Positions 18,378 through 21,268 of a stretch of DNA of 64,000 nucleotides are shown one piece after another. The notes under the pieces were generated by a model that was given only the letters and a program-made list of their open reading frames with translations, did no database searches and was not told the DNA's origin. The stretch is from assembly GCF_902459525.1 (NCBI RefSeq), contig NZ_LR699166.1:2926501-2990500 (forward strand). Direction: 5' to 3'. This stretch comes from Sideroxydans sp. CL21 (lineage in GTDB: Bacteria > Pseudomonadota > Gammaproteobacteria > Burkholderiales > Gallionellaceae). The translations under genes and the position numbers were made by a program. Numbering within the stretch: the stretch's first letter is position 1; each line of letters begins with the position of its first letter.

Positions 18378-19111
18378 GAATATTAGCGAACAACTCATCA
18401 AATGGAAATTGCCAGGGAGGTTTTACACTGGTTGAAATGGCGGTCGTATTGCTCATTGCCACGATCTTGATGGCCGGATTGGTGCCAACCATATCCAGCC
18501 AGATCGATCAGCGGCAAACTAATGAAACACGCAAGCAACTGAATGATATCCAGCAAGCCTTGATTGGTTTTGCCATTATCAACGAGCGTTTGCCATGCCC
18601 GGCATCTGCTACCAGCAACGGACTTGAAGATCCGATTGGCGGTGGCGTCTGCAACCACCCGAATGACGGCTATGTTCCCGCAGCGGTGCTGGGCTTGGGG
18701 CCGGTCAACAGCCAAGGTCTTGTGGTCGATGCCTGGAACAACCCCATACGCTATGCGGTAACGTCCTCGTACGCCAATCAGTTCACGATTGCGGGCAGCA
18801 TGAAAAACGTTTGGACGCAACCATCAATAACCCTAGATCTTCAAGTATGTACCACCTCCACCGGCATCAGCTGGAACAGTTGCGCTCCCAATACCTCGCT
18901 CAGCTCGAATGGCGTGCCTTTGGTAATTTTTTCTACGGGGAAAGATGGCCTTGGTGGCATGGTAAACCCGGATGAGGCCGCGAATCTGCATGCATCCACT
19001 TTCAAGACCTTCGTCAGCCACGATTTCACGCCGACCTATGACGATCTGGTCGTCTGGGTTTCACCTAACACCCTGTTCAACCGCATGGTCGCGGCTGGCA
19101 AGCTACCTTAA
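18374..19111 (+). CDS. Type IV prepilin-like protein
   Basis: The 245-residue protein carries a textbook prepilin cleavage site and helix, '[19 protein letters not shown]', with Glu5 present. Processing needs a prepilin peptidase, which is not in this window. The body contains '[17 protein letters not shown]', matching the LIG...LPCP block of the gene before it, plus several cysteines. I use the ATG at 18374, which overlaps the upstream stop. It is the last gene of the plus-strand run and its final codons overlap the end of convergent cysS by 4 bp, leaving no room for a terminator outside coding sequence. Confidence 0.85.
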
Positions 19112-20562
19112 GCTCTGCGCCAGGTCGTACCCTGCGGCGTGTCTTCCAGCACGATTCCAGCGTCCAGCAATTCCTTGCGAACACGGTCAGCTTCGGCGAA
19201 GTTTTTGGCTTTCTTGGCGGCGATGCGGGCTTCGATCTGAGTGTTGATCGCGGCATCGTCCAGACCACCTTCGCTAGCCTCACCCCGTAGAAATTCCTGT
19301 GGATTGCGTTGCAACAAGCCCAATACACCTGCCAATACTTTAAGTTGTATTGCCATTTCAACTGACTGATTACGGTTTGCTTCGTTGGCGAGGTCGAACA
19401 GGACGGCAACGGCTTCAGGTGTGTTGAAGTCGTCGTCCATGGCGGCTTTGAAGCGCGCGGCGTGGGGGGTGTTCCAATCAATGGCCTCTCCCCCGCCCCA
19501 ATCCTCCCCCGGTGGGAGATAACCAGCGACTTGCCCGCTTGCGGGCTTAGTCGAATGGCTAGTTGTTCTATCAGGGGGTAACTTCAACGCTGTATAAAGC
19601 CGCGTCAACGCCCCCTTCGCATCATCCAGATGCTGGTCGGAATAATTCAGCGGGCTGCGGTAATGCGCACGCAATATGAAAAAGCGCACCACTTCGGCAT
19701 CGTATTTCTTGAGCACTTCGCGGATGGTGAAGAAGTTGCCCAGGCTCTTGGACATCTTCTCGTTGTCCACGCGCACGAAACCGTTGTGCATCCAGTAGTT
19801 CACGTATTGGCATTGATGCGCGCCTTCACTCTGGGCGATCTCGTTTTCATGGTGCGGAAACTGCAGGTCAGCGCCGCCGCCGTGGATGTCGAAATGGTTG
19901 CCCAGGATGTCGGAGGCCATGGCCGAGCATTCGAGGTGCCAGCCGGGACGACCCTTGCCCCACTTCGAATCCCATTTCACTTCGTTCGTTTCGCTGTCCT
20001 TGGCGTGCTTCCACAGCACGAAGTCGAGCGGATCGTTCTTGTTCTCGGCCACATCCACTCGTTCGCCGGCACGCAGATCTTCGAGCGATTTCCCGGACAG
20101 TTTGCCGTAGCCCTCGAACTTGCGCACGGCATAGTTCACATCGCCATCGGCCGCCTGGTATGCCAAGCCATTCTTTTCCAGCTGCGCGATCATCTCCAGC
20201 ATCTGCGGAATATATTGCGTGGCGCGCGGCTCATGGTCGGGCCGTTGCACGCCGAGCGCATCGGCATCCTCGTGCATCGCGTCGATGAAGCGCTGCGTCA
20301 GCGCATGGATGGATTCCTTGTTCTCCGCCGCGCGTTTGATGATCTTGTCGTCGATGTCGGTGATGTTGCGTACGTAGCTCACGTCGTAACCGGAAGCCTT
20401 GAGCCAGCGGTACACCATATCGAACACCACCATCACCCGCGCATGGCCGAGATGGCAATAGTCGTACACCGTCATGCCGCAGACATACATGCGCACGCTG
20501 TTCGGCGTGATGGGTTTGAATTCCTGTTTGTCGCGAGCGAGGGTGTTGTAGATTTTCAGCAT
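19108..20562 (-). CDS. cysS: Cysteinyl-tRNA synthetase carrying a palindromic-element insert
   Basis: Class I synthetase of 484 residues charging tRNA-Cys. The HIGH motif is 'HLGH' (in CHLGHAR), KMSKS is 'KMSKSLGNF', and the zinc ligands are in 'MYVCGM', 'HLECSAM' and 'FPHHENEIA'. The oddity is at about residues 328-358, between 'RLYTALK' and '[18 protein letters not shown]', where relatives as I remember them have only a few residues. Here an in-frame stretch reading [16 protein letters not shown] with Pro/Gly-rich flanks comes from a palindromic repeat (separate entry). The insert lies between catalytic core and anticodon-binding part and leaves the motifs intact, so the enzyme is probably active. 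Genes on both sides are unrelated in function. Confidence 0.95.
19494..19586. repeat. Palindromic element inserted in the cysS reading frame
   Basis: The core (19518-19563) begins GATAACCAGCGACTT and ends GGCTTAGTCGAATGGCTAGT, with a short GC-rich hairpin between. The same two ends, identical over 15 and 20 bases, recur at 21106-21157. The core is flanked by C-rich and G-rich arms (CCTCCCCCGG at 19503-19512 and CAGGGGG at 19572-19578) that look like a second, older palindrome. All of it is translated in frame within cysS (core equals residues 334-349). Confidence 0.85.
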
Positions 20563-20780: not shown

Positions 20781-21071
20781 CTAACAAATCGTGCCATACA
20801 AATCCTTCCAGTCAGGATTGAATTCTTCGATCAGTTTCAATTTCCATGCTCGCTGCCATTCCTTGATTGCTTTTTCTCGCTGAATGGCAGATTCCATCGT
20901 TTCATGCACCTCGTACCAAACCAATTGATCCACTCCATGCTGTTTGGTGAAGCCGGCGACAACGTGATTCCTATGCTCCCATACCCGTTTAACCAAATCC
21001 GAGGTTACGCCAACATACAAGGTGCCGTTACGTTTACTGGCTAGCAAATATACACATGGCTGCTTGCTCAT
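20781..21071 (-). CDS. Stand-alone GIY-YIG nuclease-like protein
   Basis: A 96-residue single-domain protein of the GIY-YIG superfamily. The signature halves are 'VYLLASKRNGTLYVGVTSD' (the YLL...YVG form), followed by the catalytic Arg in 'VKRVWEHR' and Glu in the 'ESAIQREKAIKEWQR' helix. Members of this small group are common and mostly uncharacterised; DNA cleavage or repair roles are suggested by the fold. It is bracketed on both sides by copies of the same composite palindromic repeat, which may reflect joint movement or simple neighbourhood. Confidence 0.88.
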   Translation of the reverse strand: MSKQPCVYLLASKRNGTLYVGVTSDLVKRVWEHRNHVVAGFTKQHGVDQLVWYEVHETMESAIQREKAIKEWQRAWKLKLIEEFNPDWKDLYGTIC

Positions 21072-21092: not shown

Positions 21093-21268
21093 CGTCATAC
21101 CGGCGGATAACCAGCGACTTTGCTGGCGTTGTTTGCCGGCTTAGTCGAATGGCTAGTAGCGTCATCAGGCCGGTATCCAATGGTTTAATTCATCATGCCT
21201 TTGGTTTCGTATCCGCCGCGCGGATATATTTTTTCATAACTGGATTCCGGCCTGCGCCGGAATGACGG
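21093..21268. repeat. Composite palindromic repeat, copy 2, with nested element
   Basis: This is the same family and orientation as copy 1, sharing ATGCCTTTGGTTT, the central small hairpin, AACTGGAT and the closing CCGGAATGACGGG. Its left hairpin (CGTCATACCGGC / GGCCGGTATCC) is split by about 63 bp, roughly 21105-21167. The core of that insert (21106-21157) is the element also found inside cysS. The nesting shows the small element arrived after the larger repeat. Confidence 0.8.

Follow-up and report, generated by a model that had tools for sequence, protein, structure and literature searches.

Introduction

Rickettsia provides the best-known cases of palindromes that form part of protein-coding sequence, and it is unsettled whether these are of use or merely tolerated. 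Transposons of the IS200/IS605 type insert on the 3′ side of a short motif and duplicate no target bases, and PATE/MITE elements derive from these single-strand transposons. According to the accessible part of one report, Rickettsia palindromic elements (RPEs) are about 150 bp long and insert in frame in Rickettsia genes (PMC10969869). Excerpts of a second, published in 2013, equate RPE-4 and RPE-6 with small CGTC repeats and describe GTAG and CGTC repeats within ORFs, many of them in DNA repair genes and some in tRNA synthetases, with DNA polymerase I and recBCD among the hosts (PMC3733652). TnpAREP of E. coli and S. maltophilia is described, in the portion of the source available, as cleaving at CT beside its hairpin, the bulge and the GTAG foot being important in E. 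coli (PMC8266576), and an excerpt on IS200/IS605-type transposons deals with their hairpins and guide motif (PMC6006769).

The window analysed here is a stretch of 64,000 nucleotides, positions 2926501-2990500 of the single-contig genome of Sideroxydans sp. CL21 (3,772,857 bases, 3.77 Mb). A preliminary description, made from the letters of this stretch, had pointed to a palindromic element translated in frame inside cysS, the gene of cysteinyl-tRNA synthetase (CysS), and had likened it to RPEs. The observation itself is confirmed by our analysis, and its interpretation is partly supported. The best overall explanation, to which we assign a probability of about 0.68, is that the cysS palindrome belongs to a family of small, non-autonomous mobile palindromes and inserted 3′ of a CT in an older repeat.

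Two nested repeats in the cysS linker

The insertion in cysS consists of two nested repeats, a palindromic element lying inside an older CCCTC repeat (Table 1). The covariance-model match for this copy (G000:C1:2946019-2946076) takes in 4 flanking bases. The preliminary description had placed this copy and an intergenic one correctly, and its picture of a dispersed palindrome, read in frame as a hydrophilic linker in an essential gene of a betaproteobacterium-type genome, is borne out. The 46-bp extent that it gave to the core was too short, since the two elements measure 54 and 60 nt, and the residues that it assigned to the insert, 334-349, are replaced by those in Table 1, to which the CCCTC-type repeat adds 11 adjoining residues. 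The proposed likeness to RPEs holds for the manner of in-frame insertion. The insert is made of two repeats, not one.

Table 1. Features at cysS and at the intergenic copy, in window coordinates.
Feature	Position	Strand	Basis
54-nt palindromic element in cysS	19519..19572	-	ends from empty sites in relatives; covariance-model match
palindromic element in cysS, read in frame as CysS residues 331-348 (18-residue linker)	19519..19572	-	
CCCTC-type host repeat, 3′ part, read as 11 residues	19485..19518	-	sequence; CCCTC-type repeats without element in relatives' CysS
CCCTC-type host repeat of cysS copy, 5′ part, CCCCCT; element comes directly after its CT	19573..19578	-	
cysS, 484 codons, one unbroken reading frame	19108..20562	-	TIGR00435 residues 2-483, above cut-off
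intergenic copy, 60 nt	21107..21166	-	covariance-model match and sequence
host hairpin of intergenic copy, right arm, CCGCCGGTATGACG on minus strand	21093..21106	-	sequence; comparable joined sites elsewhere
host hairpin of intergenic copy, left arm, GGATACCGGCCT on minus strand	21167..21178	-	sequence; comparable joined sites elsewhere

By Pfam, the insertion site falls between the catalytic and DALR domains; on E. coli CysRS (1li5) it maps to the interval from residue 330 to residue 339. Comparison with the nearest relative (L189), linker excluded, gave 108 synonymous and 20 nonsynonymous codon differences, so cysS looks constrained. Residues 37-40 and 269-273, which we take to be the class-I signature motifs, form invariant columns among 23 aligned proteins. 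This is the only full-length CysS found in the genome, because the remaining two matches are short and concern the insert peptide alone. Structure prediction from the single sequence reached a mean pLDDT of 39, too poor for use. A 96-aa ORF that by eye is GIY-YIG nuclease-like (window 20781-21071, minus strand) separates cysS from the intergenic copy and is close to GTCATTCC-type repeats. Copies lodged in similar hairpins, at differing distances from the gene, also occur upstream of cysS, at L045 in the CL21 genome and at L255 and L274 in genomes G024 and G001.

Structure of the element

Each unit comprises a tail of about 10-11 nt (GATGRAACNAC-like and variable), a bulged hairpin and a final T. 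The hairpin, TAGCCA-tt-CGACT-a-stem-loop-stem-a-AGTCG-c-TGGTTA, is built from an outer stem TAGCCA/TGGTTA, an asymmetric TT/C bulge, a middle stem CGACT/AGTCG and a variable inner stem with its loop. We parsed 208 copies distinct in their 40-base flanks, 31 from the CL21 genome, 84 from the genus and 93 from GTDB contigs picked by exact pattern. Their lengths, which depend on our own boundary rule, are 60 nt in 136 copies, 54 nt in 44 and other values in 18, with 10 unset. Cores of 49 nt also occur (e.g. L094, L096, L121); of the 27 copies with a core shortened by one base, 17 have a tail extended by one, which again gives 60 nt.

A covariance model was built from 25 of 27 copies extracted from the CL21 genome. 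The hairpin foot is CNAC in all 25; the two copies left out, L007 and L025, have CGCC and CTAC, and some GTDB copies depart from CNAC too (e.g. L074, L100, L119). Like a REP, the element is an imperfect palindrome with a conserved stem structure. At 16 stem pairs in 81 sequences of 60 nt (74 distinct copies from the CL21 genome and the genus, and 7 chosen from distant genomes), 96% of cells are standard against a shuffle mean of 91%, and 54 double changes were counted against a shuffle mean of 7.2 and a maximum of 17, in shuffles that ignore relatedness. Divergent copies alter the outer stem in step (TAAGCA/TGCTTA, CAGCCA/TGGCTG, TAACCA/TGGTTA). Folded as a DNA hairpin, the element has a z of -3.5. 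Three of its six reading frames are usually stop-free.

Copies and distribution

Both palindrome ends occur together and exactly at six places in the CL21 genome, against none for a reversed control pattern; with up to 3 mismatches, one half-site was found at 34 places versus 15 for the control. At E<=1 the covariance model matched 43 places, and at E<=1e-4 it matched 35. Within the genus the element is present in all 34 genomes, at 1 to 48 copies each and 460 in sum. Chance similarity or an assembly artefact has next to no claim to explain the cysS palindrome, given the exact two-ended copies that the control lacks and the presence of copies throughout the genus.

Across the order the spread is patchy. 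The element was detected in 18 of 250 genomes and 12 of 120 genera of an order sample scored at E<=1e-6 plus stricter filters, 4 of those 18 genomes coming from the genus of Sideroxydans sp. CL21, and in 2 of 229 genomes of a class sample, one of them CL21 itself, i.e. 1 of 228 others. Among the 80 listed of at least 119 GTDB stretches that carry it, the contig titles name mainly Gallionella, Gallionellaceae, Gallionellales and Nitrosomonadales. Plasmid and phage records gave no match to an 83-base query at E<=0.01, and among viral contigs two carry one half-site pattern and none the other. Rfam returned nothing in the window at gathering scores and nothing around the element at E<=1. A hand count of the strands at 39 places (E<=0.0012), with the origin assumed near coordinate 1, gave 9+/12- and 8+/10-, hence no replichore bias; no DnaA motif was found in the first 2.9 kb. 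In genus g77 (L363-L376), larger repeats of about 150-300 bp that recur among the copies enclose the element, which may be amplified as part of them.

Ends, target sites and nesting

The empty cysS site of genome G018 (L199) reads GAGCCT/GTCGAAG, and compared with it the genes of G013 (L195) and G033 (L192) contain exactly a 54-nt or 60-nt element between the T and the G. Empty-site junctions in repeats read GTCATT/CCCGCGAAAGCGGGAATCC (L116), ATTCCGGGCTT/GACCCGGAAT (L126) and GTCCTCT/GTCCTCTG (L148), and L128 is likewise an empty-site case. These sites in relatives and repeats indicate that the target is not duplicated (one T at most) and that the element follows CT, sometimes TT. Among the 208 parsed copies, whose ends were partly chosen by the CT rule, the base at -1 is T in 200 and the base at -2 is C in 180. 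Like MITEs derived from IS200/IS605 elements, the element shows no target duplication and lies 3′ of a fixed short motif, a one-base duplication of T being indistinguishable from none.

Judged by motif, 114 of the 208 insertion sites lie in five repeat or tandem types, and inspection by eye shows hairpins at several of the remaining 94. The joined flanks fold more strongly than random 60-mers from the same locus (mean -17.7 vs -15.2 kcal/mol with RNA parameters, p = 1e-5). The element also nests in itself, at least four copies (L064, L077, L087, L254) being inserted in another copy at its own CT/AGCC.

We propose that a HUH/Y1-type nuclease that reads hairpins and works in trans probably moved the element as single-stranded DNA. 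The element was joined 3′ of a CT dinucleotide with the target left unduplicated. In cysS it entered a CCCTC repeat already present in the linker between the two domains. Since the element spans a whole number of codons and three frames are usually stop-free, the gene stayed open, with the palindrome presumably translated as a hydrophilic linker.

Stepwise states of the cysS and prmC linkers

The genus set holds 29 CysS loci, 27 of them with a readable linker: 11 are short, 10 encode a CCCTC-type repeat peptide (L191 in a related form), one a GTTCG-type repeat and four the element, and one, that of the nearest relative at 93% identity (L189), is unrelated. The preliminary description had held that an insertion would be disproved if close relatives without the repeat had the same residues or if the genome contained no copies beyond these two. 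The short linkers of 11 of the 27 readable relatives lack the insert residues and further copies are many (35 at E<=1e-4), so the insertion survives both checks; the count of copies inside ORFs that it had also suggested is given below. CCCTC-type repeats that contain no element are themselves read in frame in CysS (L190-L203), in several cases as two consecutive palindromes.

The element is in sense orientation within a CCCTC repeat in CL21, in sense orientation within a GTTCG repeat in G013 and G033, and inverted within a CCCTC repeat in G008. Because hosts and orientations differ, at least three insertions are likely. In a tree which, like the protein alignment, comprises 23 of the 27 readable proteins, well-supported branches force just 2 label changes and fix no higher number of insertions; there, G008 CysS, with the element, pairs with the bare G010 CysS (support 100/99). 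For PrmC, 29 of 30 genus loci are readable: 22 are bare, 4 have a CCCTC repeat, one is unclear (L387) and 2, in CL21 and G033, have the element nested in a CCCTC repeat. The same linkers have been hit repeatedly in the genus, which presents each step at cysS and prmC side by side, from bare linker through first repeat to nested element, together with an inverted element in cysS. With exact junctions, such stepwise states allow direct tests of the insertion rule, of the reuse of a linker as landing pad and of what the insert does to the protein.

In-frame copies in other genes

We counted a copy as in-gene when its frame is open for at least 40 codons and coding-scoring on both sides. This holds for 29 of the 208 copies (4/31 from CL21, 11/84 from the genus, 14/93 from GTDB), and 179 fell short. 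The frames of 28 of the 29 have a Pfam match at E<=1e-5 (L222 has none), in 18 cases flanking the insert on either side or spanning it, as inferred for L047, L102 and L121 from the number of stretches, and in 10 confined to one side (L058, L077, L094, L112, L113, L115, L136, L232, L249, L296). Host genes in CL21 encode PrmC, CysS, a PF10136 protein and a DUF255 thioredoxin. Elsewhere, Pfam identifies MutS (twice), DNA polymerase I, IleS, TilS, PurL, Mfd, RecG, RlmM, PrmA, GlnE, UvrD-C/AddA-like and DinG-like helicases, ApbE, CobD, and AcrB-type, MFS, FtsX-type, YgjP-like and S4 proteins, for a total of about 23 kinds. NCBIfam, applied to 10 host proteins, places CysS, PrmC and RecG above cut-off and PolA, IleS, Mfd, MutS and AddA below it, these five all partial at the edge of the fetched stretch; L047 and L058 have no match at E<=1e-20. 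Among host genes, the comparison with insert-free relatives covers CysS and PrmC.

As with RPEs, a palindrome is found in frame in protein genes of varied function. The preliminary description had singled out as odd that the host was an essential gene outside Rickettsia; the cysS copy is genuine, yet the family uses about 23 kinds of host gene, cysS among them, and palindromes in DNA-repair and translation genes outside Rickettsia had already been reported, as excerpts of PMC3733652 attest.

The in-gene copies are read in the sense-0 frame in 20 cases, sense-1 in 4 and antisense-0 in 5. The hydrophilic sense-0 frame is in excess over open-frame weights (p = 0.001), an excess confounded by the phase of the host repeat, which may impose it. 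All 29 in-gene copies are 54 or 60 nt long. The rest comprise 169 copies with defined ends, 151 of which have one of these two lengths, and 10 whose end is undefined. Because in-gene copies were found through their open frame and most other copies share these lengths, we claim no selection for frame. The frame excess, along with the repeated strikes on one CysS linker in the genus, could speak for a domesticated element whose linker is selected for a benefit to CysS, be it flexibility, expression or mRNA structure. We regard this as quite improbable: short linkers occur in 11 of the 27 readable relatives, the closest relative has an unrelated one, repeats, hosts and orientation all vary, and the phase of the host repeat confounds the frame bias. 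As the product of a mobile palindrome, the cysS linker may be neutral. For annotators, such linkers are mobile DNA.

Search for a mobilising nuclease

The bulged hairpin, foot motif, CT junction and absence of duplication resemble the substrates of TnpAREP. Among the Y1 loci examined, 20 from the genus gave no element match. A further 32 gave four: two strong matches at L333, each separated by more than 1 kb from the Y1 gene there, and two weak matches scoring about 15 bits (L314, L310). In none of these 52 loci do copies flank the Y1/RAYT gene. Genome G001, 99% complete, has 11 copies and no PF01797 match. When ORFs lying up to 2.5 kb from copies were clustered, no transposase was seen in the 25 largest clusters, the biggest of which (16 loci) looks ABC-type by eye, and no autonomous element with a Y1 transposase and shared ends was seen in the part of known genomes examined. 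Given the CNAC-like foot, the 52 Y1 loci and G001, a Y1/HUH enzyme acting in trans is therefore a best guess only.

The same insertion history could also have left a dead relic, or an element spread by recombination or by hitchhiking in larger repeats, with no dedicated nuclease at all. The larger shared repeats of g77, the copies in G001 next to its lack of a Y1 match, and the absence of a prominent transposase from the neighbour-ORF clusters fit such a history. It appears unlikely in view of the 460 copies over 34 genomes, the ends shared by 208 parsed copies in varied flanks, the clean empty sites, and the insertion in G008 cysS where a close relative in G010 is bare. We retain a mobile palindrome as the preferred reading, and the element offers a defined substrate for seeking the missing nuclease. 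More tentatively, and with some doubt, it might represent a distinct class of ORF-compatible mobile palindromes, CNAC-footed, mostly 54 or 60 nt long and with three stop-free frames, which use CT landing pads in older palindromes, place in-frame linkers into Gallionella-type housekeeping enzymes and are moved by a nuclease yet to be found.

Comparison with known systems

The element works like RPEs and intragenic REPs but apparently belongs to a separate family. With RPEs, as far as the available part of the source describes them, it shares dispersed palindromes in frame in unrelated housekeeping genes, and it differs from them in its 54 or 60 nt against about 150 bp (PMC10969869), a separation made by description and not by sequence. 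It also occurs in another class of bacteria and nests inside other palindromic repeats. The size, bulged hairpin, foot motif, CT junction and copies in repair and translation genes are shared with REP/RAYT REPtrons as partially available sources portray them (PMC3733652, PMC8266576). Its foot, however, is CNAC-like, neither GTAG nor CGTC, and no GTAG/GTGG or CGTC tag was found 5′ of the foot; the CTAC form reads GTAG on the other strand, but 3′ of the hairpin. Like IS200/IS605-type and PATE/MITE elements, it is inserted on the 3′ side of a short motif, duplicates no target and has hairpin ends (for hairpins, an excerpt of PMC6006769), but it has a single hairpin in place of the left and right pair, and no autonomous parent was found. 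Our incomplete coverage of the literature on Sideroxydans, Gallionella and Gallionellaceae yielded no description of the family, and the accessible part of PMC3733652 mentions neither Sideroxydans nor Gallionella.

In REPtrons copies flank a cognate RAYT gene, an arrangement not seen for the element among the 52 Y1 loci examined. Both CL21 matches to PF01797 were rejected as partners after inspection by eye: one is a fragment, and the other, the long Y1 gene, is a RAYT-like gene beside a different GTAG palindrome. This RAYT-like gene (L038, G000:C1:2129550-2129906) adjoins a palindrome that, again by eye, begins GTAGGTCGGGTTAG.
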